Assembly: GCF_032118995.1 (NCBI RefSeq)
Contig: NC_092657.1
Location: 13,282,139-13,346,138, forward strand
DNA: 64,000 nt
Reading direction: 5' to 3'
Source of the DNA: Asterias amurensis
Taxonomy: Eukaryota > Echinodermata > Asteroidea > Forcipulatida > Asteriidae
Below, piece after piece: positions 195 to 63,144 of the stretch; position 1 is the first letter of the stretch; every line of letters starts with the position of its first letter. The translations under genes and the position numbers were made by a program. The notes under the pieces were generated by a model. It did no database searches. It was not told the origin of the DNA and worked only from the letters and a program-made list of their open reading frames with translations.

Positions 195-560
195 TTAAAG
201 GCAGTGGACACTATTTTATTTGTAATTACTCAAACAAATTATTTGCATAAAATCTTACTTGGTACCGAGTAATGGGGAGAGGTTGGTATTATAAAACATT
301 GTGAGAAACGGCTCCCTCTGAAGTGGAGTACTTTTCGAGAAAGAAGTAAATTTCCACGAATTTCACTTCGAGACCTCAGATTTAGAGTTTAAAGGTCTCG
401 AAATCAAGCATCTAAAAGCACACAACTTCGCGTGACAAGGTGGTTTTTTTTCTTTCATAGTTATATTGCAACTTCAACAACCAATTGAGCTCATTTTTTA
501 CAGGTTTGTTATGTTATGCATAATGTTGAGATACGTCAAATAATAGTGTCCGGTGTCTTT
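195..560. mobile_element. Foldback MITE family A, copy 1 (TTAAAGGCAGTGG ends)
   Basis: The left end reads TTAAAGGCAGTGGACACTAT and the right end is its inverted, diverged counterpart (TAGTGTCCGGTGTCTTT). Between them are two inverted halves: 'ctcgaaatcaag' and 'cttcgagacctc' face each other around the centre. Related copies lie at about 16677-17040, 17040-17408, 21964-22328, 23756-24509, 24505-24835 and 46617-46856, with a fragment at 63076-63144. There is no coding capacity, so it is a non-autonomous DNA element. The flanking 1-194 is AT-rich with nothing recognised. Confidence 0.75.
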
Positions 561-633
561 CAACTTTAAAAGTTGCAAATTTACATTGTCATCAATATTA
601 TTGTACATTTTACGACTATGACGTCATCGACAC

Positions 634-7079: not shown

Positions 7080-7466
7080 TTAAAGGAACACGTTGCCTTG
7101 GATCGGTCGAGTTGGTCTTTTAAAATTGTTCTACAACCGTTTGTTATAACATGTATATGGTTAGAAAGATATTGTATAAGTACAATACAATGATCTACAC
7201 AAATATGCCTCGAAATTGCGTGGTTTTCTTTTTACCCTGTCGACTAACACGGTCGGCCATGGGAGTCAAAATTTTGACTCCCATAAATGGCCGACCGTGG
7301 TAGTTCGCGACGTAAAAGGAAAACCGGGCAATTTCGAGTGATCCTTGTGTGGATCATTATATTCTTCTTTTTAAACATCTTTCTAACCATATTCATTTCA
7401 TAACAAACGGTTTCAAACGCTTTTAATTGACTAACTCGTCCGATCCAAGGCAACGTGTTCCTTTAA
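7080..7466. mobile_element. Foldback MITE family B, full copy
   Basis: TTAAAGGAACACGTTGCC at the left and its exact inverse GGCAACGTGTTCCTTTAA at the right. The centre is a second palindrome: 'actaacacggtcggccat' and 'atggccgaccgtg' around 'tcaaaattttga'. The whole 387 bp can fold on itself. TTAA at both edges is the likely target duplication. Noncoding. Confidence 0.85.
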
Positions 7467-7860: not shown

Positions 7861-8065
7861 GTGTGTAATTAATACGTTAATGAATTAAATATTCTACTAA
7901 TTGCACCCTCAGACACATATATATACATGTGACTATACTACTGTTAAAACACACAATACAAACAGCATACAGCCTATGCATTATAATAAGCACCGAGTGA
8001 TATAAACTTCCGTTGAATTTGTATCCATTGATATTGATTATCAGTTATTCCAAATTATTACATCT

Positions 8066-10124: not shown

Positions 10125-10515
10125 TTAAAGGAACACGTTGCCTTGGATCGGACGAGTTGGTCAAAACAAAAGCGTTTGTAACCGTTTTTTATAAAATGCA
10201 TATGGTTGGAAAGATGTTATAAAAGTAAAATACAATGATCCACACAAGTTTGCCCCGAAATTGCGTGGTTTTCCTTCTACTGTGCGAACTAACATGGTCG
10301 GCCATTTATGGGAGTCAAAATTTTGACCCCCATAAATGGCCGACGTGTTAGTCGACGAGGTAAAAGGAAAACCACGCAATTTCGAGGCATGTTTGTGTGG
10401 ATCATTGTATTCTACTTTTACAACATCTTTCTACCCATATGCATTTTATAAAAAAACGGTTACAAACGCTTTTCAAAGACCAACTCGACCGATCCAAGGC
10501 AACGTGTTCCTTTAA
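10125..10515. mobile_element. Foldback MITE family B, full copy inside the LINE remnant
   Basis: TTAAAGGAACACGTTGCC to GGCAACGTGTTCCTTTAA, with TTAA at 10125-10128 and 10512-10515 and the same central nested palindrome as the copy at 7080. Flanks are ...atcttaaac and tgataaaat.... Noncoding. Confidence 0.88.
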
Positions 10516-15431: not shown

Positions 15432-18400
15432 AACACTGGCAACGGCAACAACGGCAACGGCTGCGGCGGCGGCAGCGGCGGCAGCGGCGGCAGCGGCAGC
15501 GGCAGCGGCGGCAGCATCAGCAGCAGCAGCAGTAGTAGTAGTAGTATATCGACGAAAACAATATCAACAGCTAAAAAAAAAAAGATCGCCTGCACGGATG
15601 TAATATATTGTAACTTTGTTCAATTATACTGCTGTCACAATTATAACCAATGTATCATCGCCATGTTTTTTTTTCTTCTTTTCTGAGCAGGGATATTAGC
15701 AACGCCACTAAAGGAGAGATTTGGCGCCAGGACTGTGGTGACAGTGAGTGGAATAGTTGCTGGTATCTCTATGATAAGTGCGTCATTCCTATCCAGTCTG
15801 TACGCAATCACCTTCCTCCTTACTGTTTCAGGTAAAACGTTGCTTAAAATTAACATAAACAAGTTGGATTGAGCTAACAAAACAGTTGCTGACATTGTTA
15901 CCACTTTATGCAACACACTATATGCATAATCTGACAAACCTGTGTAAGTTTGAGATCGATCGGCCATCTGGTTCAAGTAAAACAAAACGATTGCACATTT
16001 TGCATAACACCAAAGCAAGCCTATCGGGAGAGTGTATACACTACAAACAAATGACCTTGTTGAGGCATAATTGTCCTCTAACTAAATGTTTTATTTTTTT
16101 TGATTGGTCGTTTTCGCGGGTTTAAATGTTTGCAGCAGAGATTGTACAGTACGAAGCTTTTAAAGGGACATGCGTAAAAACAAAATTGCGTGCGAACGAA
16201 ACAAACAATTGGGTGCAAACAAAAATAAGTCCAACGAAGATTTTGATCGTACGCAAGCAAATTTTTAGTTCGCAACTGTTTTCGTACGCACGCATATTTG
16301 TTGCGGTTGAACGTAGATTTATTCGTCAGCTCGCATATTTGTTTTTGTTCGCACGCAACTTGTTTTCATTTTTTTTTTCACGCATATTATTCCTTAAGCT
16401 CCGTATAATAGAGCAATAGTGTCTATCGGTCAAACCACACAACGGCTGGACTAACAATCCAGACACTGTAATTGCAACTACATTCAACAAACAGTATGAA
16501 GATAGTATGGTATAGTGACTTCTTTAAATTTTACTTCCTGAGGTGCTGATTTTTTTTGAGAACATAGTAAAACAAGTCACGAAAATAACATTAACGGACA
16601 TTACGAAACATGTGAAACGTCTTTACGTGATACTGGTTTACTCATTCATAAAAACAATTGCAGCACCTTAGCAATTAACATATAAAGGGAAAGTACACGT
16701 TTTGTAATTACTAAAAACAAATATTAACTCAAAAATTTACTTGGTAACGAGCATTGGAGAGCTGTTGTTAGTATACAACATTTCGAGGAACGGCTTCCTC
16801 TGAAGTAGTATGTATTTTGAGAAAGTGTTTATTTCTGACTTGAATGTTAAAAGACTTTAAGCTATAAGTATTTTATTTCTAACTGAAAGCACACAAATTT
16901 TGTTATCTTTCATCTTTGTCTTGCAACTTCTATGACCAATTTAGCTTAAATTTTCACAGGCTTGTTATGTTATGCTTATGCTGGGATACACCAAGTGAAA
17001 AGACTGTGCTTTGACAATTAACAAACGTGTACCTTCCCCTTAAAGAGAGTGGACACTATTGGTAATTGTCAAAGACCAGTCTTCTCACTTCTCACGTAAA
17101 ATAACAAACCTGTGAAAATTTGAGCTCGATTGGTCGTCGGAGTTGCGAGATAACTATGAAAGAAAAAAACACCCTTGTCACACGAAGTTGTGTGCTTCCA
17201 GATGCTTGATTTCGAGACCTCAAGTTCTAAACTTGAGGTCTCGAAATCAAACTCGTGGAAAAGTACTTGTTTCTCAAAAACTATGTTACTTCAAGAGGGA
17301 GCCGTTTCTCTCACTGTTTTATACCTCTCCCCATTACTCGTTGACAAATGAGGTTTTATGCTAATAATTACTTTGAGTAACTACAAATAGTGTCCACTGC
17401 CTTTAAAGGTTAACTTTTTATTATCATTATCTTAAAACGGTGTGAGTGTAATTTATGTAAATATGTTGACATTGTTGAAAAAAGTACCTTAATGTTTAGA
17501 AAATGTTGAGTATACTTTGTTCCCTCAGCTCTTCAGAGGAATGTTAAAAGTTAAAACTCTTAACATATTTCGTATCTTACTATTCAGGAGCAGCAATTGG
17601 CATCACTTACATAATATCGAAGCATCTGGTTGGAAGTTTCTTTACCAAATCACTCACAACAGCCTACGGCTTGGGGTTCATGGGCTCCTCCTTTGCCTTC
17701 ATTGCTGTTGTGCCATTGATACAGCTTTTCCTAGATATATACGGCTGGAGAGGAACAATGCTACTACTTGGAGCATTATTATTACATATCGCTGTTTGTG
17801 GAGCTCTGATGAAACCACCTGCAGCTAGTGGGAGTCGAGAAGGTTACGAAGCAGCTCTCACATACGAGGAGCAAGAGACCGGAGAAGACAAAAGGGCACC
17901 AAACAACCACTGTGGCTGTTTTAACAAAGTATACTTATTCACTCGTGATACATTCCAGCGTGGTTTGTTCTCATCCACATCATTTTGGTTTATTGTATGT
18001 ATATCAACTGTTCGACTAATCACTTACTGTGCTTGGTTAGTCTACTATGTGCAGTATACTACTGTGTATAAAGGATTCACAATGGAAGACGCGTCGCATT
18101 TCATCGTTGCTTATGGAATTGGAAAAGCAGTAGCCTGCCTTATGATCGCCCCTATAATTCAGCAAGTGCAATTTGTCAGCAAATACACCTGGCTGGCTAT
18201 AGCTGTACTTATACTTGCCATTTACTATGCTGTCGACCCATGGTTGATGTCTTACTGGCCAATTACTGGAAATGCTTGTATCTTTGGAATTGCTTTTGCA
18301 TTGACTTCCATACTCATAGATGTTGTCATAAAGGAAATATTTGGTAAAGAACAGCTGGGCCATGTTCTTGGCTGGATGGGATTTATGACTGGTTTGTCCT

Positions 18401-19824
18401 TAATCCTTCTCCTATATTTCCCAGGTGAGTTTTTGTGTTAAAGGAACACGCTGCTTTGGATCGGACGAGTTGGTCATTGAAAAGCGTTTGTAACCGTTTG
18501 TTATAAAATGCATATGGGTATTAATATATTTTTAAATTAGAATACAATGATCCACACACGTTTGCGTGTTTGCGTGGTTTTCCTTTTACTTTGCGACCTA
18601 ACACAGTCGGCCGTTTATGTGAGTGAACAATTTGACCCCCATAAAATGGCCGACCGTGTGAGCAGGTTAGCCCACACTTTCGTTCCCAGGGGTGATCGAT
18701 CTCGCCGCGCCTGTTTGACCCATGACTACGAGGATGCATACAACACTACTAGGCGCACGAATGCATATCCGAAAATGGTCTCTGTCATCAAGATGCAACA
18801 CATGTACAAAGCTCAAGGAAAGGACGTCGGTATATTTCGACATGCAAATATCGTCCTGATTAACACAATCAAACTAAGTAGGATTTGAAACTTTGCGTGG
18901 TGGAAATACGATATAGAAAGTTTTGCGGTAACACCATGTAATGACTTTCTCTATTGAGTTGGGGTGGTTCTGAAAAGAACCGTTGGTTTCAACTCGACGT
19001 TTCGATAAGTATGCTCTGATCGTCTTCTGCAGAAGACGATCAGAGCAGAAGACGATCAGAGCATACTGATCGAAACGTCGAGTCGAAACCAACGGTTCTT
19101 TTTAGAATCACCCCAACTCATTAGAGATAGTCATTACATGGTGTTACCGCAAACCTTTCTACAAGCAAACTAACCCAACATATTGATAACAGATTCGTAA
19201 ATGATTGATAAACGTTCTGCATCGAGTATTTTGTGAGGTGTCTTGGCCGAGTGGCTATATTCAAGTATGGTCAAAATCAATGGAGTGTGGCTTCAGGTCC
19301 CGGTAGTAAAGCTTTTGTCCTTGAGCAATATACTTTACTAATGTTTCTTTTCACCAAGTGTTATGTATCTGCCAGTTTGATTTGTTGGTAAGAAAAAGCC
19401 TTCGGAGCGCTACCTTTGTCCAGGGAACGGATACATATGAAAGGGATGTTATTGCCCCGATGACCGGGGCAATATAATAAAGCGCATTGGGACGGTAGTT
19501 GTAAAATTCACTATTGTGTTGTTTATAATTAGTAGTTTTGTCGGGATGGATCCAAACCACTCTCTCGATCAACAAAGCTCACGGCTACACTGGCGAGCTG
19601 ATGAATTAATGAGTCGCAAATTAATGAATGAATGAACGAAACAGTAATTGAAGGTATGTAACTTAAACATGTGTACGTTTTTTTTGTGCCCACCAGGATT
19701 GATATACGACTTAACTGGAGACTACACCGTTGCCTTCAGTCTAATGGCTGGTGCACAATTACTGAGTGTTGCTGCTGTATTTTGGTTACACTGGAGGCAT
19801 AAAGGAAAGAAGAGTTTTCGATAA
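14191..19824 (+). CDS. Monocarboxylate-transporter-like MFS protein (SLC16 family), four coding exons
   Basis: Coding exons 14191-14422, 15691-15831, 17588-18424 and 19697-19824, each flanked by GT and AG, all introns phase 1, total 1338 nt (445 residues plus TAA). The N-terminus has 'DGGIHGW' before TM1, a variant of the MCT family DG-G-W motif, then 'KGLGMMLPTLQEQF'. Exon 2 begins 'GILATPLKERFGARTVV', matching the family's TM2-TM3 loop with its RFG(C/A)R motif. Exon 3 carries 'YGLGFMGSSFAF', TM4-6, a central Cys/charged loop and TM7-11. Exon 4 supplies 'GLIYDLTGDYTVAFSLMAG' and TM12. Length and topology fit SLC16 proton-linked carboxylate transporters of the plasma membrane; the substrate is unknown. 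Introns hold repeats only. An acceptor-like AG sits 3 bp before the start codon. Confidence 0.9.
14713..14820. repeat. Solo copy of the outer end of the 6026-9058 palindrome repeat
   Basis: The words 'ctagacatt.ggtgtttgtg', 'aaacacaaag.tgttccgtg' and 'gagtctataact' follow in the same order as in 8910-9045. Similarity continues weakly past 14820, as it does on the outer side of 6026, so the repeat is longer than the palindrome arm. Confidence 0.65.
15357..15550. repeat. Trinucleotide-rich low-complexity tract in transporter intron 1
   Basis: Runs of AAC, then GACAAC, then GGC/GCA and AGC/AGT units, merging from one to the next. Any translation (poly-Asn, poly-Gly, poly-Ser) is incidental. Confidence 0.8.
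16158..16397. mobile_element. Foldback element in transporter intron 2
   Basis: Left 'atgcgtaaaaacaaaattgc' faces right 'gtttttgttcgcacgcaac' and 'cacgcat' as inverted repeats, with internal 'ttcgtacgcacgcatatttg'-like words. About 240 bp, noncoding, likely MITE. Confidence 0.55.
16495..16676. mobile_element. Family C foldback fragment
   Basis: Shares 'gaggtgctg.ttttt' and 'agtaaaacaagtcacgaaaat' and their inverted counterparts with the fuller family C copies at 29538-29886 and 36720-37149. Confidence 0.5.
16677..17040. mobile_element. Family A MITE, diverged copy
   Basis: Contains the family words 'ttacttggtaacgag', 'ggcttcctctgaagtag' and 'ttcacaggcttgttatg'. Its ends (aaagggaaagtacacgttt / aaacgtgtaccttcccctt) form inverted repeats that differ from standard family A. 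Confidence 0.6.
17040..17408. mobile_element. Family A MITE, full copy
   Basis: TTAAAGAGAGTGGACACTAT at the left and ATAGTGTCCACTGCCTTTAA at the right, with the central inverted pair 'gatttcgagacctcaagttc' / 'aacttgaggtctcgaaatc'. Directly abuts the diverged copy before it. Confidence 0.8.
18438..18660. mobile_element. Family B MITE, half copy
   Basis: Starts TTAAAGGAACACGCTGCTTTGG right after the exon 3 splice donor of the transporter gene and runs to the central palindrome 'atggccgaccgtg', then stops. The second half is missing. Confidence 0.75.
18914..19161. repeat. ~248-bp near-perfect palindrome
   Basis: The left arm starts tagaaagttttgcggtaac and the right arm ends gttaccgcaaacctttcta. 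The centre contains 'gaagacgatcagagca' twice and 'gatcgaaacgtcgagtc'. Such 'cgaaacgtcga' ends are common in Penelope-like elements, but no reverse transcriptase is nearby, so the family is left open. Confidence 0.7.
19232..19640 (+). mobile_element. tRNA-derived SINE with (AATG)n tail, transporter intron 3
   Basis: A-box-like 'TGGCCGAGTGG' at about 19244, degraded B box 'caggtcccggt', 'gtccttgagcaat', a unique body, then an 'aatgaatgaatgaacgaa' tail. The head resembles tRNA-Leu/Ser genes. Confidence 0.55.
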
Positions 19825-21194: not shown

Positions 21195-22425
21195 CAGTGT
21201 TAGAGTAGGTCGGTACAGTGACTGTGTAATTGCCTTCGACGCGTTCCTTTTAAAGAAAACAAATGGAGCGGAACAAATTGACTTATTGCATTGTAAAAGT
21301 AGGTCGGTACAGTACCCTTTGATGTGAAATTGCCTCTGTTGTGTTCCGTCTACAAAACTAAACAAATGGAGCGGAACAAATTTACTTCTCTTTTCTGACG
21401 TACATGCAGCTATATAGCGCTAAAGATCTCATATCAAAAACAATTATGATTTCCACCACGTAATTGCAGTCTACACACCTCGGTATTGTGCCACCTTGGC
21501 TGTTATTTATTTTTTTGTTTTTGCAGCGTTTTTTTTTACAGAAAACAAATTGAGCGGAACAATTGCTCTCATCTCGGTTCTGACGTGCATGAACCGCTTT
21601 TTATTCCAGTAAAAACCAAAACAAATACGCGAAAAAAAAGACTTTTAGTTACTCTGTAAACGTATGTCGGTTTAAAGAGTCAGTCAGCGTATAACATTAT
21701 TTGTGAGCATATGGGTGTGTGTTCGTTTAGCTTCCATGGGTTGACCCCGGTCTACGTCTGCCCTGGTACGTTCGAATAGCTTTGACGGGGCTCACCCGGG
21801 TCGGCCCCCAGTGCCCTGCTTTTGGAGTGGGCCACTTTGGTGACCTGATGAGTATGCCATCATCACGAGAGGGCGAGTGTGATCGTTCGATTAGCTCTAT
21901 TTGCGTTATATATGCGTTGTTATAGTTTTGGCAAACGCTACAGTGTGACTTGGCCTTACAGACACTTGACACCATTGTAATTTGTTAACACACAGTCGGT
22001 GTATCTCACCATATAGTTAAAATAACAAACCTGTGAAAATTTGAGCTCACTCGGTCGTTGTTGTTGCGAGATATTATTGAAAGAAAAAAAAAACCTTGTC
22101 ACAAGTAGTTGATTGCTTTCAGATGTTTGATTTCGAGACCTAAAATTCTAAATATGTGGTTTTGAAATCAATTTCGTGGAAAATTACTTCTTTCTCGAAA
22201 ACTACGTCACTTCAAAGGAAGCCGTTTATAACGGTGTTGTATACCATCAACCTCTCCCCATTACTTACAAGAAAGGTGTTATGCTTATAAATATTTTGAG
22301 AAATTACCAATAGTGTCCACTGCCTTTAAATAATAGGCCGATACAGCATCCTTGGCTGTGTAATTGCTTTCGCTACGTTCCTTTTGCAGAAAAACAAAAG
22401 GAGCATAATACAGTGATTTGGTCTG
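21195..22425. repeat. Four scattered copies of a ~95-bp unit upstream of the fibrinogen-domain gene
   Basis: Copies at about 21202-21295, 21297-21395, 21500-21600 and 22325-22425. Shared words are 'aggtcggtacagt', 'gtgtaattgc', 'gcgttccttt' and 'aaacaaatggagcggaacaa'. The first two are in tandem; the last is separated by a family A MITE. No stable reading frame is shared. Between 21720 and 21960 the sequence is GC-richer, with no identified feature. Confidence 0.6.
21964..22328. mobile_element. Family A MITE, diverged copy
   Basis: Right end ATAGTGTCCACTGCCTTTAA and body words 'aacaaacctgtgaaaatttg' and 'tttgatttcgagacc'; the left end is degraded. Confidence 0.65.
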
Positions 22426-22530: not shown

Positions 22531-22743
22531 CAAGCCTTAAATACTGTTTGGTCACTCGTTTCTATCTCACTGCTGCGAATACGGTGAACGGTGAAGTCGA
22601 TGAGTGAAGCTTACTCAATTACACATGTGTGCAGCAACAACTTCTGTTCAATTAATTGCTTAATTTGAATAAATATATGAATAACTGCCTGATTCATTAC
22701 TTCTAAAAGTTATTACGAACAATAGTATACACAAACGATCATC

Positions 22744-23755: not shown

Positions 23756-24509
23756 CTTAAAAAGACACAGGACAACTTCGGTATTGCCATCGACGTGTCT
23801 CCTAATTTGGTATATCTCAACATATGCCCAGCGTAACAAACCTTAAAAAAATGAACTCAAATGGTCGTCGAAGTTGCACGATAATATTGACACAAACAAC
23901 AACACTTGTCGCACGAAGTTGTGTGATTTGAGATGCTTTAATTCGATACCTTAAAATCAAATTTACGTGTTTAAGTGAGAAACAACCTCTTTCTCGAAAA
24001 CGACGTTACTTCGGTGGGAGCCGTTTATCGCAATGTTTTGTAATATCATTGATCGTCAAGAAGTAAGTTTTTATGCTTACAGTTATTTTAAAGGAAGTCG
24101 TTGCCTTGGATCGGGTCGAGTTGGTCTTTGAAAGGCGTTTGTAACCGTTTGTTATAAAATGCATATGGGTAGAAAGATGTTGTAAAAGTAGAATACAATG
24201 ATCCGCACAAACATGCTTCGAAATTGCACGGTTTTCATTTTACCTCGTCGACTAACACGATCGGCCATTTAGGGGAGTCAAATTTTTGACTTCCATAAAT
24301 GGCCGACCGTATTAGTTCGCACAGTAAAAGGAAAACCACGCAATTTCGAGGCAAACTTGTGTGGATCATTGTATTCTACTTTTAAGACATCTTTCCAACC
24401 ATATGCAATTCAAAACAAAGGTTACAAACGCTTTGTATAGACCAACTCGACCCGATCCAAGGCAACGTGTTCCTTTAAGCAATTGTCAATAGTGTCCAGT
24501 GCCTTTAAA
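23756..24509. mobile_element. Family A MITE split by a family B MITE
   Basis: Family A words run from 'aaaaagacacaggacaac' to 'agtaagtttttatgcttacag'. A complete family B element (24088-24478) interrupts, then the family A right end 'tagtgtccagtgcctttaa' resumes. Confidence 0.7.
24088..24478. mobile_element. Foldback MITE family B nested in family A
   Basis: TTAAAGGAAGTCGTTGCCTT to AAGGCAACGTGTTCCTTTAA with TTAA at both edges and the usual central palindrome. Being inside a family A copy, this insertion is younger than that copy. Confidence 0.85.
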
Positions 24510-24984: not shown

Positions 24985-25346
24985 TTAAAGGTACACGTTG
25001 CCTTGGATCGGTCGAGTTGGTCTTTGTAAAAGGGTTTGTAACCGTTTGTTATCAAATGCATATGGATAGATGTATGTCGTAAAAGTAGAATACAATGATC
25101 CACACAAACATGCCTCAAAATTGCACGGTTTTCCTTTTACATCGTCAGATAACACGGTCCGCCATTTATGGCCGACCGTGTAAGTTCGCAAAGTAACAGG
25201 AAAACCACGCAATTTCAAGGCAAATTTGTGTGGATCATTGTATTCTACTTTTAAAACATCTTTCTCACCATATTCGTTTTATAACACACGGTTAATTTTT
25301 TGTTTATAGACCAACTCGTCCGATCCAAGGCAACGTGTTTCTTTAA
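24985..25346. mobile_element. Foldback MITE family B, copy with shortened centre
   Basis: TTAAAGGTACACGTTGCC to GGCAACGTGTTTCTTTAA. The central palindrome lacks the 'tcaaaattttga' loop, leaving 'cggtccgccat' / 'atggccgaccg'. Confidence 0.8.
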
Positions 25347-28405: not shown

Positions 28406-29356
28406 TTAAAGGCACATGGAAACATAATTTTCTTTTCTTCAAACATTAGAGTATTTGTTAATGAACATTACAATATTTCTGTGAGTAGTCGTTTTTAATA
28501 ACAATTTATATGTTTACACAAAATAGATAAAGTTGTTTGGGGGGGACTCCGCCTACCCCTTTTGTGACGTCAATCGAGGCAGCTTTTGCCTCGATTGAAC
28601 ATTGAACACACGTACGTGCAAGTACATGCAAGTCCTAGTTGTGAGTTTGTACGTTTCGAAAAAAGAAAAATTATTGCATTTTTCCGGCAATGTCGACCAG
28701 GTGTATTGCTGCTGGATGCAGCAAAACAACTTAAGATAGGGTCAGTTTGCAAAGGGGTCCGGTCCGACGTCTTTTTCAGCACTTCGATCCGTCGTGCTTT
28801 GAGAATCCGGAATACACCGCACATTTTGACATGAAGAGAAAAGTTATTTTCTAAAACATGACGCCACCCCAACAATTTCTAGAGATAACTGGAACTCGAA
28901 TAAGATACCTGAAAGACGTGACGAACCTTAATAAGCATTTGCCTTACGTGAACAAAATCGGGTATTGTTTCAACTGTGAGGGCATGTTTTTAGCTTGCGC
29001 TAATCGTCACTATTTTGTGTTGGCACTGCATGCGATTCACCGTCCCCACAGCAGCCATACAGTGCGTGCATTTTGCTTCGTGACCGTAGTTTTGTACGTA
29101 CGTAAGCATCATACCGATCGGGTATCAAGACGCAGTGTACGGGGCCAGACTATACAATTTCTCTTCAAATATCGCGCCTCGATTGACGTCACGAACAGCG
29201 CCCTGTCGGGTCGGGCTTTCTTTTAAATTGGTGAATAAAATGGAAACTAATTTTGTAGAACCTTAGCTCCTTGTTTATTTATGTTCCACTCATCAAAACA
29301 CATATTTTAGTGACAAAAGCTTTATTTTGACAAAATACCACTTCCAGGTGACTTAA
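28406..29356 (+). mobile_element. Kolobok/T2-like DNA transposon with decayed THAP exon
   Basis: TTAAAGGCACATGGAAAC at the left and CTTCCAGGTGACTTAA at the right, TTAA at both edges. Collinear with the element at 39784-41069: same 'actccgcctaccccttttgtgacgt', 'ccggcaatg.cgaccaggtg' and right-end 'cgcgcctcgattgacgtcacgaacagcgccct' blocks (the last in pieces). The THAP coding part is shortened and interrupted (start lost, internal deletion and stop), so no protein is expected. Confidence 0.75.
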
Positions 29357-29537
29357 ATGCATTCATTGGTAGGTATACATAGGACGACGATGTTGTAATT
29401 GAATGTGTTACAAACAACCAAATGCATTGTTACTAAAGCTGCAATGGACCGTGCAAGTGTCGCTCTTTTTCGCAGGTTTGACCAACTAAAATTCGGTTTG
29501 TCATTAATGGCTACACACTGAAAATACTTGAATACAC

Positions 29538-29886
29538 TCTTAGAGGATTTTGGTACTTTTTTAACACAGCACACAATGTTCACATTATTTACACTAAATT
29601 TTAACCGTAAAATATCAGTTGCTGAGGTGCTGTAGTTTTTGAGAAATTAGTAAAACATTGTCATGAAAATACGTTTACAGGCTAAAACAATGTTCGTCTC
29701 ATGATCACTGAGACGAAGATTATTCTTATTACATTGTTTTACTCATTTCTCAAAAACAACAGCACCTCACAGCAAGTAATATTTTCAGGGACGCTTTCTA
29801 CTATTATTATCTTCAAGCTCTGTAAGTTAAGTGTAAATCTGTGGACATTGTTTTTGTTGTACTACAGAAAGTACATAGACCCTTTA
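29538..29886. mobile_element. Foldback MITE family C
   Basis: Inverted halves: 'gaggtgctgtagtttttgag' facing 'ctcaaaaacaacagcacctc', and 'attttggtacttt' facing 'gaaagtac'. The centre is 'gtctcatgatcactgagac'. Noncoding. Confidence 0.65.
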
Positions 29887-32761: not shown

Positions 32762-34805
32762 ATGAAGAGTTTGCTGCTGATCGTATTTTTGGTGTGGTGT
32801 ATTGAAGGTAAAGTACAATTTGTCGTTTTTGTTTACCAAGTAAATTGCTGCATCGTCAGTTGATGTTGGCGGGTTTTATGTGCTTGTTCATATGATCGTT
32901 ATTTTTACAGGTTTGTCTCTGCCAATTTCAACAAAATAAATTTCATTGGATAATGATGGTGCTGCAAAAATGCCTTTTTACGATTTGTTTTTTGAATGGT
33001 GTCCGTTACAGCAATTTTCTGGTTATTACGCTTTTACATGCTAATAAAATAACTAAGACTAAACTTACGTTGTGACTTGTTTTACTCAATTCTTAAAAAC
33101 TATAGCACGTAAGTAAGTAATATTTGACGGGAAGCTTTTTACTATCATTATCTTTAAACCCTGTAAGTTTAGTGTCAATCTGTTGAAAAGTACTCGAATC
33201 CTTCAAACGAAAATTTAAGTGTCAATAATGACAGAAATCTGTCCGCGTATCTAGGCAATTTTTTTTTGGGGGGAACGCAATTCTTGTTAGCACAATAAAG
33301 CATATATCTTGAGAAAACGAAAACGTATTTTGTTGTGAACGTTATCGCACGTAAGTTAGGAAACAAAAGCGTATAAAATACACGCAATCGAGCATTTAAA
33401 ATTTGAAACTTTAACTTTCGGTTTGAAATTGAATTGAAGGTCACGTGGGGTCGCACACTGTGTAGCAGTGCTTACATTTTTGAAGGCACGGTGATTCAGA
33501 AATCCAATAATGTGCTCATGGTTTTGAAACCGATGTGTGGTTTAGGATTAATGATTCGTTAAATCGTGAACTTGTTATAACGTATAAATGATACAATTCC
33601 TATTTGTAAGGTTGACGAGTAATGATTTTTCAAATGTAATGTTTCATCATTTTCAGTTTGAACTGGAAGTAAAGGTCACGTTGAGTAAATTTGTGTGTAT
33701 CTCTGGTATTTTTTTTTCCAAATATTTAAAATCAAGAAAACGATACATTCTGAGTGAACTTTGTCTACTTTATTGTCACGTTTAGATGTCTTTGGTTTAT
33801 CTGTGTAGATAATTTAGTTGGCTTGATGTGCAGAAAGAAACTCACACAATTTTTCTATTTTACCCCGGTAGTAACTTTTAATGTAAACATAAGTATAAAT
33901 ACTGTTTGTTCCGTTGTCTTTGTTAAATTTTCAGCAAACAATGGCATGGAGATGTCGTCTTATTATGGCCCAGTACCCGAGCCTGATCCCGGTCAGCCTT
34001 ATAACAAATACCATTGGGTGAAATCAGCCATGAAGAAACTTCAAAGCGGATGTCTGAAAGGAACCCCATTGCATGAAAGTGACCCCACCGGAAGTACTGG
34101 TCAGAAAGGTATGCTTCTTACTGCTAGACGTTCACATCAATCAAATATCCAGTTACCGTAGTGGCAGGGAGTCAGAAACACTTTGTTACGTAGAAGCAGT
34201 TAAGTTGGGCGGAGTCTTCAACATGCCAAATTGCTTGATTTCGACGGCGATCATATATACCCCGACTTGATAATGTATTAAAATCGGGCAGATTGGCATT
34301 ACCTTCGTAAGGTCGTAGTGCTGTGTGAACAGGGTATAAGACAATTTCTGGATGAGATATCAGTATATACTTGGATTGCGGTAAGACCGTGTGTTGTCCA
34401 CTTGCTCATATCAACTTCAAATTTCACATTTTATAATTGGACATTTACTAAGAGGAAATCTCTAAAGTTACGTCCTGATAACGTCTTACGCTTTTGAAAT
34501 ACTTTATTCAAAGTTTAATAATTAAAACTGCCATAACTCCCGAACGCCCAAGTTGATTGTGTACAATTCAAACAAAATCGCAGCGGGTATTTTTAAACTC
34601 ACTAAACGACATAACATAATGTGATCTAATTTGACCGTGACTTTTGGTTTAAACATGAAAACAAAATTGTATTGTATTGTAGTTTGTTCCTTGGACTCCG
34701 ACGAGCCTCTCGGTATGGAGAATGGAGACATTATCAATACCGATATCGAAGTATCATCGACGCCCGGCGTGGATCCTGTTAGCAGTGCGAGGCTCAATTA
34801 TCAAG
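32762..34805 (+). CDS. Secreted F5/8 type C (discoidin) domain protein, first three exons
   Basis: Exons 32762-32807, 33935-34108 and 34683-34805, each with GT/AG borders and phase-1 joins. Exon 1 encodes a signal peptide ('MKSLLLIVFLVWCIE'). Exon 2 gives a ~58-residue Pro/Gly-rich linker ('YYGPVPEPDPGQPY'). Exon 3 opens a discoidin domain: 'CSLDSDEPLGMENG' followed by 'SSARLNYQ', the classic first cysteine, PLGM and ARLN signatures. The rest of the domain (W-x-QVDLG and the closing Cys) was not found in frame downstream to about 38 kb. The gene is therefore either truncated or continues in exons not recognised. A possible fourth exon starting at 35378 is weak. Discoidin domains bind phospholipid or glycan at the cell surface. 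Confidence 0.65.
33040..33205. mobile_element. Family C MITE, right half
   Basis: 'cttgttttactca.ttctta', 'gggaagctttttactatcat' and 'aaaagtactcgaatcctt' match the right half of 36720-37149. It lies in intron 1 of the discoidin gene. Confidence 0.6.
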
Positions 34806-36690: not shown

Positions 36691-37440
36691 AGCCTGGCTA
36701 TCCAACTTTTGAGCAATGTTTAAAGGGTATTATGTACTTTTTCCCAACAAAAAACACAATGTCCACAGATTAACATTAAACTTACACAGTTTTAAGATTA
36801 TGATAGTAGAAAGCTTCCCTTGAAATTTTACTTACTGAGGTGCTGTAGTTTTTGAGAAATGAGTAAAAGTAATAATGTTCGTCTCAGTTTTAGCATGTAA
36901 AAACGTATTAACCAGTTATGCTATAGTTGTGGTATAATATCATAACTGGTTAATGGGATTTTACATGCTAAAATAATTTTGGTCTCATGAGACCAAAATG
37001 ATTTTGTGACTTGTTTTACTCATTTCTCAAAAACTACACAACCTTAGTTAGTAATATTCGAAGGGAAGCTTTCCACTATCATTATCTTCAAACCCTGTAA
37101 GTTTAATGTAAATCTGTGGACATTTTGAAAAAGTACCCGAATCCTTTAACAGACTAACGTTCAACTTTGAGGCAAATCTAAATAAAAGTTGGGCAATGTC
37201 AACACCCATCATGCCCAACGTTTGAGTAGGGTTCCTGCAAAAGAAATACTAGTGGACAAACAACATTGCATGACATGTCATTTATGCACATTTAAGTTGA
37301 ATTTTAATTTAAATATGCCAAATTAAATCATGCCCAACTTTTGAGCAGGGTTCCTGCAAAAGTATTACTCGTTGGGCGAACAAACCTTGCATGCCATCTA
37401 ATTTTTGTGCAACTTCAGGTTGAACTTTCATTTTAACAAA
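36690..37440. repeat. ~130-bp direct repeats, one unit interrupted by a family C MITE
   Basis: Units start 'catgcccaac.tttgag.agg' at about 37209 and 37341 and share 'gttcctgcaaaagta' and 'ttgcatg.cat'. A fragment of a third unit ('ccaacttttgagcaatg') at 36697-36718 is cut by the MITE at 36720. Confidence 0.6.
36720..37149. mobile_element. Foldback MITE family C, full copy
   Basis: Left TTAAAGGGTATTATGTACTT and right AAGTACCCGAATCCTTTAA; inverted halves with a second internal palindrome 'aaccagttatgctatag' / 'atcataactggtt'. TTAA at both edges. About 430 bp. Confidence 0.75.
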
Positions 37441-39444: not shown

Positions 39445-40069
39445 AGCAGTCACCGTTTATACACATGGTGCACTCCATCATGTGCTTTAGCTATTGCCAA
39501 TCACAATCGCTTTGTCCGCTAGTGTGAATAAAGCGCTCACTGAGCGAGCAATTTCAAACGCGAAGTTAGATTATTTGATTTTTCATCAAATTATCACATT
39601 TCAGACATAAATATTTATTGGGATGTTTTCAACTATGTTTATCAATAGACCGTATAAGTTTTATGTAAATCTGTGATTATGTCAAACGAAGTGGTTTGAT
39701 GTAGGGACTTTTGTCTCATTGTCATTTGTCTGCTGAACAGCAACATATCATAAATGTATCTGTCTTTCATGGACCCGAGATTCTTAAAGGCACCTGGAAA
39801 TAGGATTTTTTTTCTTTTAAACATAAGAGTATATGTTTATTAACAATAAAACATTTTTTTGAGTAATTGTTTGTCACGATTTGTATGTTAAAAAAAAATA
39901 ATTAAGTGCTTGGGGGTGGGGGTTGACTCCGCCTACCCCTTTTGTGACGTAGGAAAAGGAAGACTTTGCTTCGATGCGTAGATAAACACACGTGCAAAAG
40001 TACATGAAATTCTAAGACGTGAGTTTGTACGCTGCGAAAAAAGGTTTTTTTTCTGGCATTTTCCCGGCA

Positions 40070-40415
40070 ATGCCGACCAGGTGTGTTGCTGCTGGATGCA
40101 GCAAAACAACTAAAGATGGGTTCAGTCTTCATCTATTTCCTGCAGATCCCAATTATAGGCGGTTGTGGGCTGCGAAAGTCAGATTAACTAGAGCAAAGTG
40201 GTCCGGTCCGACGTCTTTTTTTAGCGCTATGCAGCGAACACTTCGAGCCGTCGTGCTTCGAATCCGGGATACACCACTCATTTGACATGACGAGAAGAGC
40301 CATTCTTAAACACGACGCCGTCCCAACAATTTTTCCAGCTAGTGGGAAATCGAAGAAGGTATTTGAAAGTCGTAACAACCCAGAGGAGCATTTGCTAAAC
40401 GTGAAAAAAATTCGG
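40070..40415 (+). pseudogene. THAP zinc-finger exon inside the transposon
   Basis: ATG at 40070 opens 'MPTRCVAAGCSKTTKDGF', the C-x4-C start of a THAP finger, then 'LWAAKVRLTRAKWSGPT'. The second metal pair 'LCSEHFEPSCF' and the diagnostic 'AVPTIF' lie in a different frame. The frame changes in the T7 run at 40216-40222, most simply a one-base homopolymer change. The exon ends at 40415 before GTAAGT. The THAP module would bind DNA as the N-terminus of a transposase or THAP host protein. Confidence 0.75.
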
Positions 40416-40703
40416 GTAAGTGTGAACTTTGAGGGTATGTTTTTAGCTTTTGCCAAGTGACACGATTTTGTTCAGGGGCAGGTCCTATATGTGACCGTCC
40501 GCACATTATACAGCAGCCATAGTGCGTGCGTGCAGTCTGCTCCGTGACCGTATTTCTATAATAATACCCACATCTTACAACCCATTTGGTCACTAAAAAG
40601 TCGCATAGTTAAATAAAAATAGCAGCAATAGCTTTTGTAAAAACCACTAGGCGTTCAACATGTTCAAGTTTCAATGTACGTATGTGTGTAAAATCGTGTC
40701 TAA

Positions 40704-40832
40704 GGCCGTGTCCGAAACGGCGACTTCGGCTACAGCTACGGCTAGATCGCGCGCGTCTGCCTATTCTTCAACACTGGTAGACGCGCTGATCTAGACGTAG
40801 CTGTAGCCGAAGTCGTCGTTTCGGACACGGCC
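40704..40832. mobile_element. Palindromic MITE (GGCCGTGTCCGAA ends)
   Basis: GGCCGTGTCCGAAACGGCGA to its inverse TCGTTTCGGACACGGCC, with 'gacttcggctacagctac' / 'gtagctgtagccgaagtc' inside; TAA on both sides. A second copy is at 51778-51891. Confidence 0.8.
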
Positions 40833-41814
40833 TAAATTTGTTTTGATGTGCCATGTTCCCAGACGTAATATACGGGGGCCTGACTACAAATTTTCTCTTC
40901 AAATATCGCGCCTTGAATTACGTCACGAACAGCGCCCTCTCGGGTCGGGGCCTACTCGTAAATTTGTAAATACAATCAAAACTAATACTTTTAAACCTTA
41001 GTTAACTTTTTATTCACATTCCTCTCGTAAAAATACATATTTTAGTGACAAACTTCCAGGTGACTTTAATTCTCCCGGATAAGGTGTTTTAAAGCATCGG
41101 TCACTCATGTCTTAGAAACTATTAAGAAAGTGACAGAGCTTGACCACGTTTGCATTAACATTTAATTCTTTACACATGTTGTTCTTTGTTAACCACACTG
41201 ACAAAGTATTAAACAAACTCTCACAATTTCTTTGTTTTGGTTGTTTTTGTCCCAAACAAAAGTTAATAAGTTGAAAGTGCTGTTTGGGAATATGGTTATT
41301 GATGCTGGTAAGTGACTGCTTGGGGATAAAGTTCGGCAAATGGGGACTTTTAAAGCGCTTGGAAGCCGCAGACCTACCAGGTAAAACAACATTGTTGTCG
41401 GTAATGCGCGCATGCTCAGAACTACGTTCCAAAGTATCCCATTGCGGTGCACTAATTGTTCCTTTGTGATGCTTTGGTTTAAGTCTCTAGCGTAATAATT
41501 GTCTGGAAAAAGAAACTTCATTGAGAATACCAAAAATCAAACATTTTTAGTCATATCCGTCACTTTGTAAAACACACTGGTTTATTGTATATTAAAAACA
41601 CCGTTAATATCACAGTGACTTAACCAGCAAAAGAGTTGAAGATTAATACAATGAAGATCATGTAACCTTTGTTTACAACAGGATCGAACCTTAACAGGTC
41701 GGGTCATTTCCTGGTAGATGAGACACTACACTGCAGGGTCATATGAGTCTTCCACATAATGTAATAATTTCCACCTTAATTAAAAAGTGTAAATAGGGTT
41801 TGAGGCATTGCACG

Positions 41815-45360: not shown

Positions 45361-46616
45361 AAATGCAATAAAATGTTTTTGTATTTTAAGTACGCGAACA
45401 CAGTTTTGCCGGAGAGTTAGCACTTTTGCAGGGGAAAAAGCGCAAAAATTACCAAAAATTATACATTATTGATAGGTAAATATCATTTTTTTGTTTTTGT
45501 TTAAATACCTTATCGGTGGAAGGGCTTTGAGGTTTAAAACAAATAAACTTTTGAAATCACCACAAAGCCCTTTGCCATGGTAACAGCTCATTTTGTGTTT
45601 TGGCAATTCTTTGCCGATTTTGTGTCTGAAAAACTGTATTTTAGCATATTATTGCAGCTCCACTAAGCAAATGCGCATTTTTTTTTTTAATTTTTATCAA
45701 ACCTTTCACATCAATACAACGAGTCGTCCTTTGTTTTACTTGAGACAAACAACAATTGATTTAACTTTTACCCTTCTGCTATTTTTAGTACAGCATTAGA
45801 GCATGTCTGTAGAAAATCGAAAAATCTGCATTTTTACCCTATTTTTGGCCTTCTAAATGACAACGTGCCAGGGGTCTCAAAATATTGTCCTTTCGGTTGT
45901 GTTTTGGGCCAACATTGGTCCTTCCATTTAGAGAAACACAATTGTATCATGTTGTAACAGTACAGCCTAAAAAAAATGCATTTTGAAGTTGTTTTCTTCG
46001 GATTGAAATAATAACATTAATAAAACAATACTTTTATTTTTTAAGTTTTCCATCAATCCGATACCTTTCATTAGCATCCTGTAGCCTTGTGGACTACCCA
46101 ACATTGACCAAGAATATTTTGAATGACCTAAGTTTTAGATGTTATACCCCCCCCCCTCCCCGCCCAGCCCCCAAGTATATCAAACTTTGTTGACAATGCA
46201 TGAAAGCGCTGTGAACAGCGCTTTCTTTTATTGATAGTCCCTTTTTTAACTTCCAATTGCACATCATTAGTAGTATACAAATTTGTAGTGTCTTCAGTTT
46301 AATTCAGAGAATATTTCCCTTTCGGTTGTGACTGGCCAATTATTTGTGTTTTCATGTCTGGCGAGCACAAATGGGCAACTGTGTCATGTAGTGACACTGT
46401 CTCAAACATGGTAATATTTGCTAAAACAAGATCAAAATAATTATCTAAAATGGCATTTATTACATGCTGAACAATGATGTTGATTGATAGAAAACAGGAT
46501 AAAATAAAGCAAAGCAACTTAAAATACAAATATAACTCTCAATTGTATACAATGTATAGTTTGAAGACTCACCCCAAGCTAATTCGGCTGGTATAGTGTT
46601 ATCCAGCTATGTTCCA

Positions 46617-46856
46617 TTAAAGGCAGTTGACACTATTGGTAATTACTCAAAATAATTATTGCACCAAACCTTACTTGGTAACGATTAATGGGGAGAAGTT
46701 AAGGGGAGAGGTATAAAACATTGTGAGAAACGGCTCCCTCATTGTTTTCGAGAAAGAAGTAAATTTCCACGAATTTGATATTATGCATATGTTGAGATAC
46801 ACCAAGAGAGAAGACTTGTCTTTGACAGTTACCAACAGTGTCTAGTGTCTTTAAAG
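46617..46856. mobile_element. Family A MITE, internally deleted
   Basis: TTAAAGGCAGTTGACACTAT at the left and AGTGTCTAGTGTCTTTAA at the right; one inverted half is shortened. Confidence 0.7.
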
Positions 46857-47222
46857 CCATTGGACCCTTTCGGTACAGAAACAAAACAGTTCACAGATTT
46901 ACAAATTACTTACAGGGTTACATAAGGTAATGGTAAAAGACTTCTCTTGAAATATTATTCCATGAAATGCTTTACTTTTTGAGAAAACAGTAAAACAATT
47001 TCAATTCTCGTTAACGAGAATTACGGATTTATTTTAAACACATGTCATGACACGGCGAAACGCGCGGAAACAAGAGTGGGTTTTCCCGTTATTTTCTCCC
47101 GACTCCGATGACCGATTAAGCCCAAATTTTCACAGGTTTGTTATTTGATATAGAAGTTGTGATACACGAAGTGTGGGCCTTGGACAATACTGTTTACCGA
47201 ACGGGTCCAATGGCTCTAAGGA
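46853..47222. mobile_element. Family A/C chimeric foldback element
   Basis: Inverted ends 'aaagccattggaccctttcg' and 'cgaacgggtccaatggctct'. The left half has family C words ('cacagatttacaaatt', 'tttttgagaaaacagtaaaa') and the right half family A words ('aaattttcacaggtttgtta'). It suggests recombination between families or a common ancestor. Confidence 0.5.
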
Positions 47223-49015: not shown

Positions 49016-49996
49016 TTACTGCACTTCCCGTAGTTTCATGCTGCAATTTTTGAGGGAGTACCTTCCCCCCCTCCAGGTTTTCCACTCTATTCCCCTTTTA
49101 AACGTATCAACCCCCCAAAGGTATTGGCCATTGAGGTAAGCCTTGTAGCAGCTTTTAAACCACCAGCCACCTTTCCTGTGTTCTCCACAGTTATTTGAAG
49201 ATAAGTCGTTGTCCTGATCTTTTGTTGTGAATAATCTTTCATTGTGATGAGTCAATGAATCACCTGCTGTACTCTTAGCATCATATGAACCAACATGGAG
49301 AGTGTACTTGTCACCTGTAACAGCAAACTCACCGTAAGAAGCCCAGGATGTGTTCGACTGCCAATCTCCCAAGTCTACTCTGAGTTGCCATTGACCTGAC
49401 CCAGTAAGGTCACGCAGGATATCATTCCCAAACCAGAACTCATTCTCTAGATCACCAAACCCATATTGGTATTCTGTCCAGTTACGGTAAAAGTTAACAG
49501 AGCCGTCTTGCCTCCTCTGGAACACGATCCAGCCTCCTCCATCTGTCTCCATATCACAGTAAACTTGTACCCCATCAGTCAGGTTTGTGGGAAAGATGGT
49601 ATGAATGCCATTGTCACGGTAACCAGCTTGATACAATTTCAAACAACTGCTGTAGCTTTCAGTGATTGATTCTGAAAACGTGGGTTGGTTCGCATTGTCA
49701 TCATAGTACACGCTTCCTTGCAGCTTGACAAAGTCATCACCGTTTTCAGCTCTGCTGGCATGATTTAACACACAGATACGCTTTTTGTTGTGATAGTTGA
49801 ATGAGCCACAGTTTGGGTTTATAGAGCAGTCTCGCCCACATACCACGGGTGAAGATACCGGCTTCCAATGTATCACATGGTTCAGTAATGCACGGTTTTC
49901 AGCCAAGTATAAACTTTCCATGAACCTTTGTTGATTTGCACACAGACAGGTTTGTACAACCACAACCAGAAACAAGGTTATGATGACAACTTCCAT
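49016..49996 (-). CDS. Secreted PAN-like plus fibrinogen C-terminal domain protein (FReD), paralogue
   Basis: Single exon, 326 residues, ATG at 49994-49996. It has a signal peptide (about 1-19), a PAN-like Cys segment (C53, C57, C63, C75) and a fibrinogen domain from about 115 ('YCDMETDGGGWIVFQRRQDG', 'NEFWFGND', calcium loop KDQDND at 259-264, C118, C147, C270, C283, C318). It matches the 22744 gene along its length, differing most in residues 95-112 and the last 45. The shorter calcium loop (DQDNDLSS against DQDNDGD) may change metal or ligand binding. Upstream lies a CRE/TATA promoter that is tandemly duplicated together with the first 65 codons. Likely role: extracellular recognition lectin; ligand unknown. 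Confidence 0.93.
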   Translation of the reverse strand: MEVVIITLFLVVVVQTCLCANQQRFMESLYLAENRALLNHVIHWKPVSSPVVCGRDCSINPNCGSFNYHNKKRICVLNHASRAENGDDFVKLQGSVYYDDNANQPTFSESITESYSSCLKLYQAGYRDNGIHTIFPTNLTDGVQVYCDMETDGGGWIVFQRRQDGSVNFYRNWTEYQYGFGDLENEFWFGNDILRDLTGSGQWQLRVDLGDWQSNTSWASYGEFAVTGDKYTLHVGSYDAKSTAGDSLTHHNERLFTTKDQDNDLSSNNCGEHRKGGWWFKSCYKAYLNGQYLWGVDTFKRGIEWKTWRGGRYSLKNCSMKLREVQ

Positions 49997-50124
49997 GATA
50001 AACGCTTTTGGGTTAACTTATCTAAAACGATTCACAGTAGAAGAAAACAAATTCTCTGTAGAAATGTTGTCTTGACACTGACAGTTAATCTTTAACGCGA
50101 GTGAATTTATCAAATGAACTGATT

Positions 50125-50210
50125 TTTGGTCGCTTATAATTTTTAAGCCGTAAATTATAGCCATTGACGTCACTGTTACCATGGCATTATTTTATAAACA
50201 AGCGACCAAA
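50125..50210 (-). promoter_or_regulatory. FReD promoter: CRE and TATA box between inverted repeats
   Basis: A perfect CRE (TGACGTCA, 50165-50172) and a minus-strand TATA box (TATAAAA, about 50190-50196) lie between 'tttggtcgcttata' (50125-50138) and its inverse 'tataaacaagcgaccaaa' (50193-50210). It is about 130-215 bp before the start codon. Regulation by CREB/ATF-type factors is inferred from the site only. Confidence 0.6.
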
Positions 50211-50317
50211 CCGTGTTACACGCTTGAAGACTTTTGGCATAATCACTCAACCGCGGGTTAGATTTGGTGTATTGTTCCCGTTTTTTTTCGGCAATTAGTT
50301 TGTGTTCTTCAAAAGAA

Positions 50318-50533
50318 TCAGTGAAGCATGTACATCAATGAGCCACAGTTTGGGTTTATAGAGCAGTCTCGCCCACATACCACGGGTGAAAATACCGGCT
50401 TCCAATGTATCACATGGTTCAGTAATGCACGGTTTTCCGCCAAGTATAAACTTTCCATGAACCTTTGTTGATTTGCACACAGACAGGTTTGTACAACCAC
50501 AACCAGAAACAAGGTTATGATGACAACTTCCAT
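50318..50533 (-). pseudogene. Truncated 5' copy of the FReD gene
   Basis: Start codon at 50531-50533, signal peptide and PAN-like start identical to the full gene except Ser48 to Phe, up to 'NPNCGS' (65 codons). It then reads out of the duplication junction into six unrelated residues and a stop. Whether the 71-residue secreted peptide is made is unknown. Confidence 0.85.
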
Positions 50534-50663
50534 GATAAACGCTTTTGGGTTAACTTATCTAAAACGATTCACAGTAGAAGAAAACAAATTCTCTCTGTAG
50601 AAATGTTGTCTTGACACTGACAGTTAATCTTTAACGCGAGTGAATTTATCAAATGAACTGATT

Positions 50664-50749
50664 TTTGGTCGCTTATATTTTTTAAGCCGTAATTTATAGC
50701 CATTGACGTCACTGTTACCATGGCATTAGTTTATAAACAAGCGACCAAA
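50664..50749 (-). promoter_or_regulatory. Second copy of the CRE/TATA promoter
   Basis: CRE at 50704-50711, TATA at about 50729-50735 and both inverted flanks (50664-50677, 50731-50749) are all kept. It could drive the truncated copy or act as an additional upstream promoter. Confidence 0.55.
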
Positions 50750-50874
50750 CCGTGTTTCACGCTTGAAGACTTATGGCATAGTCACTCAACCGCGGGTTAG
50801 ATTTGGTGTATTGTTCCCGTTTTTGTCGGCAATTAGTTTGTGTTCTTCAAAAGAATCAGTGAAGCATGTACATC

Positions 50875-51777
50875 ATTGAGCACAGGTTTATACGAGTAAC
50901 AATCATATGGGTTATGCCATTACGGCACCGTGTATAGGGACACTTAGGGCCGTAACTACGAAACCCGTTTCACCCATTAGATGCGTATAAATGAGTATTC
51001 ACTGTATAAACCTCGTGTCTAACTTTAAACAGGTACTACAAAGCTTGCGTTTAGTTAGCCGCGTTGTATTGACCATTAAAGTTCAACATGTGTTTATAAC
51101 AAACAATAGCAATTCTTAAACAGCTACCTGAGCGGAATGTTTTCAACAGAAATTGTATTTTTTCTTGTTTATAATGCACTTGTTCACCATGTTAATGTAA
51201 TTTTGGTATGTGTACATTTCTGAACTTTTCGTAGTTATCAATTAAAAACTCAGGCCCCTACCTTAAGGTTTTTTTAAAAACTAAAACACTTCTGCCGTTG
51301 AGAGCGGGCGTCAAAAGACAATTACGCTGGCGTCATTTTGTGGGAGTTTGCTTTGTCATACATCCACGCTGCAACAAAGCGGCTTTATCTACTAATGACG
51401 TTTTGAGAGTGAATACGTAACGGGGCTTTTCGCAAATCTCGCAGAAAAGCTCTGGACAAGGGCATACAAAATGATTGTTTTTTTTACACAATTGAAACCT
51501 ATTTATAATCATATGACTCGATTTCCTTATTCATCGAAAACATTTTAAGTGGAATTCAGCAAAGTTCACGACTTGACATTTTCGTTCAAGCAGGTCGTTA
51601 AACATGGTACGGGGGTTGTTTAGTGAGTATTCTGAGCCATTTAGAAGCCAGATATATACACATAAAGGTATAAAGGTGGACAGGATGGATGGGCTCCAAA
51701 TCTCCTTAACCCTGCATTCCACGCTAAGCAGACAAAATATTATCTGTTAAGCAGGCCAGGAAAACATGGCACACTTA
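50875..51777. other. Intergenic
   Basis: No gene or repeat recognised. Confidence 0.4.
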
Positions 51778-51891
51778 GGCCGTGTCCGAATTGGCGACTT
51801 CGGCTACAGCTACAGCTAGATCAGCGCGTCTGTAGCAGACGCGCGCGCCCTAGCCGTAGCTGTAGCCGAAGTCACCAATTCGGACACGGCC
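51778..51891. mobile_element. Palindromic MITE (GGCCGTGTCCGAA ends), second copy
   Basis: GGCCGTGTCCGAATTGGCGA to the inverse CACCAATTCGGACACGGCC with the same 'cttcggctacagctac' core as 40704-40832. Confidence 0.8.
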
Positions 51892-52642
51892 TAATACACT
51901 GTGTACACACTATACACCCAACACGGAGGATTCACTGTTGACTCTAAGCATCCCTAGCACCTTTGAGGTGGGGGGGGGGGTTGGAAGGAGGATGGCAAGT
52001 AAAAAGATCTTCTTACTCAAGGCCCCTTACTTTCTGAACACATTTTATGCCCGACTCAAAAAGAGGATAAACATAATTGACCTTTCTCTTCAGACATTCC
52101 ATTCAAAAAGTCAAACAAAATCCCCCAGCCCCCCCCCCCTTCATCCCAGCGCACCCCTGACCACCATAGTAAACAACTTTTATGAAGCTTTGGTGAAGCT
52201 TGCCAGCTGGCACAGTCAAGTCTGTACTACCTGTTGACAGACAAGCTTGTTGCCTGCCATTTTCAATTTTTCCAGCAGTACATGTCTATGGGGAAGTCCC
52301 CAGAACCTTGGACCAGTGTCACTTGATATGGACGTAGAAGATAAACCCGATAACCTAGGCCATTCAAATTCTCCATTATGTTTCTCAAACGTATAATGAA
52401 GGAGGTCATGAAAGTAAGGCTTTCTACCTCATTCACGAGAGGAGTAATTACCAAAAAAGTAAAATGTGCCATAAAAAACATAGCTAACTCACTTAAAACA
52501 GGGTTAATTGCACAAGAGGAGGATGACGAACAAGAAAATCGTCATGGTCGCCAACACCAGCGTCCACCAATAGTTTTTAGGGACAAGGTGAATCCCTTAG
52601 AAGAGAATGAAGAAGAGCATCTTGTTAATGGCTTGTCCTGAA
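51892..52642. other. Intergenic with an unassigned open frame
   Basis: A plus-strand frame at 52378-52641 (87 codons, basic start, acidic end 'EEDDEQENRHG') has no recognised domain and runs up to the microsatellite. Not called as a gene. A G run (51970) and a C run (52130) are also present. Confidence 0.35.
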
Positions 52643-63075: not shown

Positions 63076-63144
63076 TACTCGTTACCAAATGAGGTTTTAT
63101 GCTGATAATTATTTTGGGTAATTACCAATAGTGTCCACTGCCTA
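63076..63144. mobile_element. Family A MITE, right-end fragment
   Basis: 'actcgttaccaaatgaggtt' through 'ccaatagtgtccactgcct' is the last ~70 bp of family A. Confidence 0.7.

Follow-up and report, generated by a model that had tools for sequence, protein, structure and literature searches.

Known TTAA-specific elements

Kolobok transposons are described in PMC9587614 as producing TTAA target duplications and as having 5'-RR...YY-3' ends, unlike piggyBac. According to the sections of PMC6004289 used here, Kolobok transposases usually carry a C2CH THAP domain with P/W/F residues and an AVPTIF box, together with DDE and H2CH parts. The same sections describe the T2-MITE, which combines TTAA with terminal AGGRR and is probably mobilised by Kolobok transposases, and several Kolobok subfamilies with different ends within one Xenopus genome (Table 5).

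The window, i.e. the whole stretch of 64,000 nucleotides that was analysed, contains an element with a THAP exon (E1), a second copy of it (E2), and three further families of small repeats (A, B and C) with TTAAAGG ends. E1 and E2 are very probably decayed Kolobok copies, with A, B and C as MITE-like, non-autonomous members of that superfamily. The grouping of the local elements with Kolobok, proposed in the initial annotation, is supported by the TTAA target, by the THAP domain and by the ends, which read AG...CT, and hence RR...YY, in E1, E2, A1 to A4, B2, B4 and C1. A decayed Kolobok-type element with neighbours of the same end type is ordinary repeat biology.

Borders and ends of the THAP-bearing element

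39784..41069, plus strand: E1, probable non-autonomous Kolobok-type element with a THAP exon; TTAA at both edges, a 12/14 inverted match inside the TTAAs and a second copy in the window
39788..39801, plus strand: left terminal inverted repeat of E1 (AGGCACCTGG...)
41052..41065, minus strand: right terminal inverted repeat of E1; the minus strand reads AGTCACCTGG...
40703..40833, unstranded: foldback of another family inside E1; 87% inverted self-match, other copy at about 51775-51894

Read directly, E1 has the layout TTAA-AGGCACCTGG...CCAGGTGACT-TTAA. The left edge at 39784 is TTAAAGG, the start reading TTAAAGGCACCTGG, and the right edge, GACTTTAA or in a longer reading CCAGGTGACTTTAA, finishes at 41069. 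Inside the two TTAAs the outermost 14 bases agree as an inverted repeat at 12 positions. Across the whole window an inverted match of at least 12/14 is displayed by 8 of the 8,719 TTAA...TTAA pairs spaced 300-2000 bp. Of these eight, one is E1, four are A elements and one is B2; the remaining two belong to a large inverted repeat (about 6.9-8.2 kb). The earlier account of E1, with a THAP exon and TTAA edges, stands, except that it overlooked a foldback lying within the element at about 40703-40833. The arms of that foldback and of its other copy (51775-51894) contain GGCCGTGTCCGAA, and its family has no TTAAAGG ends.

P elements make 8-bp target duplications. No such duplication is seen at E1, where the edge octamers are ATTCTTAA and TTAATTCT and have in common only the TTAA at the border. 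A title cited in PMC6004289 connects THAP with the P transposase, and E could on that account be sought among relatives of the P element, which likewise has a THAP-like domain; given the octamers, such a kinship is highly improbable.

The second copy

28406..29357, plus strand: E2, second copy of the E element; THAP exon internally deleted and with an in-frame stop, right edge CTTAAA as against CTTTAA in E1
28564..28580, plus strand: left arm of an exact 17-nt inverted repeat, subterminal in E2; none of 200 shuffles reaches 17, the longest giving 12
29176..29192, minus strand: right arm of the same repeat

A BLAST search of the window with E1 as query recovers E2, missed in the initial annotation, at 28406-29317; the match consists of three blocks, with 76, 73 and 80% identity. 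The right end extends to 29357, where CTTCCAGGTGACTT recurs and is followed by AAA. The CTTAAA found there is one base off the CTTTAA of E1, either through a change of TTAA to TAAA or because one T is missing ahead of an intact TTAA; taken at E1's position, the edges of E2 are TTAA on the left and TAAA on the right. Because two copies have the same limits, the left border does lie at TTAAAGG, and because the second of them has THAP sequence within matching limits, the exon is part of the element. A third E fragment, considered at 26790-26848, was dropped, as it is T-rich and has no E end beside it.

In the alignment E2 is without part of the THAP exon and without the stretch matching the E1 foldback at 40703-40833. 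The foldback may be a later arrival in E1 or may have been lost from E2, and both fit the window. The 17-nt inverted repeat of E2 (GTGACGTCAATCGAGGC), whose arms lie 158 and 165 nt from the element ends, is possibly a transposase or regulatory site. The longest subterminal inverted match in E1 is 8 nt, a length that 173 of 200 shuffles reach.

The THAP exon

40070..40415, plus strand: THAP-coding exon of E1; PF05485 matches above cut-off, frame broken near 40216-40223, donor-like CGG/GTAAGT after it

The exon matches PF05485 in two parts, 40070-40231 with model positions 1-45 (24.6 bits) and 40221-40412 with positions 53-87 (27.7 bits), both above the Pfam gathering cut-off of 23.9. Split by a frameshift near 40216-40223, the halves lie in different frames and translate, each in its own, as MPTRCVAAGC...LFP...W and ALCSEHF...AVPTIF. 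C-x4-C, C-x2-H, P, W, F and AVPTIF are readable, so that the C2CH, P/W/F and AVPTIF features of a Kolobok THAP domain are present in E1 across two frames; they are degraded in E2, where an in-frame stop lies 14 codons past the ATG. An intact THAP domain is not to be expected from either copy. The donor-like CGG/GTAAGT of E1 is at 40413-40421, and the corresponding E2 sequence is CGGGTATTG. The two PF05485 matches, with the second copy, confirm what had first been reported, a THAP exon at 40070-40415 in a TTAAAGG-ended element.

Between E1 and E2 the THAP core is identical at 159/182 positions, the remainder of the exon at 58/82 and the sequence outside the exon at 455/603. The p of 0.0005 for core versus outside is optimistic, since the core (40070-40330) was given its limit at 40330 after the identity profile had been inspected; when the comparison is limited to the 3' non-coding part, the core's higher identity is not significant (p 0.09). 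Differences in the exon number 19, 12 and 16 at codon positions 1, 2 and 3, with no third-position excess. Past coding constraint on the exon is suggested by the identity and not by the codon positions.

Alternatively, a TTAA-specific MITE could have picked up the exon from a THAP gene of the host, as THAP domains occur in host genes too and the scans described below revealed no further transposase part. Solved structures closest to the second THAP half are THAP1 (E 0.0024) and THAP2 (E 0.0042), a result without power to discriminate because no Kolobok structure is among the PDB matches. The exon begins 286 bases inside the left end of E1, in sense orientation and with an ATG in both copies, and THAP is usual in the Kolobok transposases of PMC6004289; both points make a host capture improbable. 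The TTAA edges, the AG...CT ends and the C2CH THAP domain with AVPTIF fit a non-autonomous Kolobok element, and neither piggyBac nor P.

As decayed Kolobok copies, E1 and E2 would be internally deleted DNA transposons of this superfamily that kept both ends, the sole coding exon retained being that for the THAP part, by which the transposase binds DNA. The full transposase would be made elsewhere in the genome, its THAP domain binding the element ends. By cut-and-paste the element would be excised and inserted at a TTAA, which would thereby be duplicated.

Search for a catalytic part

Among 74 (10 + 64) of the 91 window ORFs of at least 90 aa, the 17 in tandem arrays being set aside, no DDE or H2CH part was found against Pfam. 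Ten shorter ORFs of E1 likewise gave no Pfam match; this short-ORF scan was confined to E1, less two of its ORFs (30 and 33 aa). For A, B and C the search for THAP consisted of overlapping ORFs of at least 90 aa. Transposition-related Pfam matches in the window are RVT_1, zf-RVT, Integrase_H2C2, zf-H2C2, rve and THAP, of which all except THAP can be read as putative retroelement parts. The absence of DDE and H2CH is a weak argument against the Kolobok reading, as Pfam may have no model of the Kolobok catalytic domain, and a missing catalytic part is to be expected of a non-autonomous copy.

In bacterial, archaeal and viral records, exact matches number 0 for the B end (viral and genome contigs), 0 for the A end (viral) and 0 for the stretch common to E1 and E2 (viral contigs). 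Patterns of the first THAP half matched 8 stretches in viral contigs and those of the second half 50 stretches in genome contigs, none of them confirmed. No literature match was found for four end sequences.

Other ORFs of the window include a TRIM-like one of 682 aa at 634-2682 (minus strand), with RING, B-box and whole-protein NHL matches, and a pair with PAN and fibrinogen C-terminal domains at 22726-23733 (plus strand, 335 aa) and 49016-50017 (minus strand, 333 aa). The pair is 75% identical in DNA and opposite in orientation, and its second member overlaps a tandem duplication (49800-50351 and 50337-50888, 97% identical).

Families A, B and C

7080..7466, unstranded: A1, family A foldback; TTAA at both edges
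10125..10515, unstranded: A2, family A foldback; TTAA at both edges, 87% inverted self-match
24088..24478, unstranded: A3, family A element inside a family B copy whose parts lie at about 23757-24087 and 24479-24508
24985..25346, unstranded: A4, family A foldback; TTAA at both edges
18438..18662, plus strand: family A half element
195..564, plus strand: B1, family B element; approximately placed right edge with CAAC where TTAA would stand
17040..17406, minus strand: B2, family B element; TTAA at both edges
21956..22329, minus strand: B3, family B element; one edge TTAC
46617..46854, plus strand: B4, short family B copy; TTAA at both edges
36720..37149, unstranded: C1, family C foldback; TTAA at both edges, with incomplete relatives near 33019-33206 and 29707-29886

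TTAA on both edges with AG...CT inside is found in E1, A1 to A4, B2, B4 and C1. The local families had been described as foldbacks, which holds for A and for C (76% inverted self-match over 36755-37127). Family B shows no full-length inverted self-match in self-BLAST and so differs from the foldbacks A and C. The far end of B is GTCTTTAA in B4 and CTCTTTAA in B2; in B1 and in the copy hosting A3 one end is degraded or uncertain, and the far edge of the host copy is placed only approximately. A 51-nt motif, 61-86% identical to a reference copy, recurs at 301-351 (in B1), 36818-36868 (in C1), 16521-16571, 29605-29655 and 46945-46995, a weak hint that bodies may be shared or mosaic.

Between the arms of an inverted repeat of about 1 kb (6026-7022 and 8062-9058, 98% identical) lie a single family A element and a fragment of A. 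Near the outer edge of its right arm begins a 12-bp tandem array. Two 12-bp arrays run from 8927 to beyond 9514 and from 10560 to beyond 11119, and each has one 18-bp step among the spacings listed.

TTAAAGG at repeat boundaries

TTAAAGG occurs 28 times in the window against 14.5 expected, and 1 of 100 shuffles reaches 28. Position on boundaries is a stronger test than frequency: 17 of the 28 sites are at most 2 nt from a self-BLAST boundary, while for 209 control words of the same letters boundary sites have a mean of 0.10 and a maximum of 4. The 17 sites represent four families (A, B, C and E), within which copies are not independent.

Target duplication

With the flanks of A3 joined on one TTAA, alignments to five B copies (17270-17409, 22186-22330, 194-347, 46614-46690 and 63079-63143, the last without gaps) run through the junction, which establishes the TTAA duplication for A3. 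The comparison of empty sites that had been suggested as a check for exact TTAA duplication thus proves positive for one family A element, A3 in its B copy. Three aligned B copies have TTGA at the place of TTAA, and the target copy would accordingly have had its TTAA by a base difference that preceded the insertion. No junction-spanning relative of E1, E2, A1, A2, A4 or C1 is present within the window; the sole junction-spanning row for A1 reflects its own right flank plus a neighbouring A end, and was rejected as an empty site. For E the edges are TTAA/TTAA in E1 and TTAA/TAAA in E2, the duplication itself having been seen once, in family A.

A TTAA duplication would also favour a piggyBac-type element. 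THAP is not known as a feature of piggyBac. In PMC9587614 RR...YY ends set Kolobok apart from piggyBac, and with ends here of AG...CT, which is RR...YY, the chance that E is of piggyBac type is very slight.

Likeness of ends between families

Movement of all four families by one Kolobok transposase, as the initial annotation had it, would accord with the TTAA edges and AG first bases present in all, and with the AGGCA common to one end of E and of B. The ends of C are AGGGT and AGGAT and those of A mostly AGGAA, with AGGTA and AGAAA in A4. Likeness in TTAAAGG gives no independent support, because the families were grouped by it. In the 12 bases after TTAAAG no likeness between families is detectable in 18 comparisons (p 0.17 to 1.0, a weak test), the best p being 0.17 for B-A, 0.19 for E-B, 0.43 for B-C, 0.48 for A-C, 0.48 for E-C and 0.93 for E-A. 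When a family's own two ends are compared, p is 0.0002 for E, 0.0036 for B (far end taken from a single copy, B4) and 0.09 for C; as C's own ends reach only 0.09, the test can miss real likeness. The frog, moreover, holds several Kolobok subfamilies with different ends (PMC6004289). A single enzyme for all four families is therefore doubtful, the families' ends beyond TTAAAG not being detectably alike by this weak test, while the Kolobok part of that earlier proposal is supported. As members of one superfamily, A, B and C would be cut at the same TTAA/AG boundary as E by one or several related transposases.

As a lead and not a test, TTAAAGGCA, present in one end each of E and B, fits the human THAP1 site TNNNGGCA given in PMC11811203. 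A bolder scheme, and one with little likelihood, would be a Kolobok lineage cutting at TTAA/AGG and requiring hardly any further end sequence, in which one enzyme serves several MITE families and truncated derivatives spread the THAP exon alone. If true, a protein made of THAP alone could repress by occupying these same ends, or could feed new host THAP genes.

Comparison with known superfamilies

The four small-repeat families of the window gain a likely superfamily label, and the ends and THAP exon of E1 and E2 provide a query for an autonomous partner. If one partner drives several MITE families, this would bear on the minimal end sequence required by a Kolobok transposase; otherwise it is routine repeat annotation.

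KolobokP is a Kolobok lineage, described from seven animal phyla and with non-autonomous units (PMC9587614). THAP is not mentioned in the main text of that paper, whereas E1 carries one, and self-BLAST reveals direct terminal repeats in neither E1 nor E2. XKol of Xenopus, compared by description only from the sections of PMC6004289 used here, is like E in its TTAA edges, AG...CT ends and C2CH THAP domain with AVPTIF. Full-length XKol measures about 7-14 kb (Table 5 of PMC6004289), as against 1.29 kb for E1 and 0.95 kb for E2; in E no DDE or H2CH was found, and GTAAGT follows the THAP sequence of E1.

The T2-MITE of Xenopus (PMC6004289) is likewise short and non-autonomous, with a TTAA target and an AGG start. 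By its description, the likeness to T2 ends that had been drawn for the local elements holds for family A, most of whose ends (AGGAA) fit AGGRR, but not for E and B (AGGCA) or C (AGGGT, AGGAT). By analogy, the frog subfamilies with differing ends in Table 5 of PMC6004289 provide a simple model for the four families found here.
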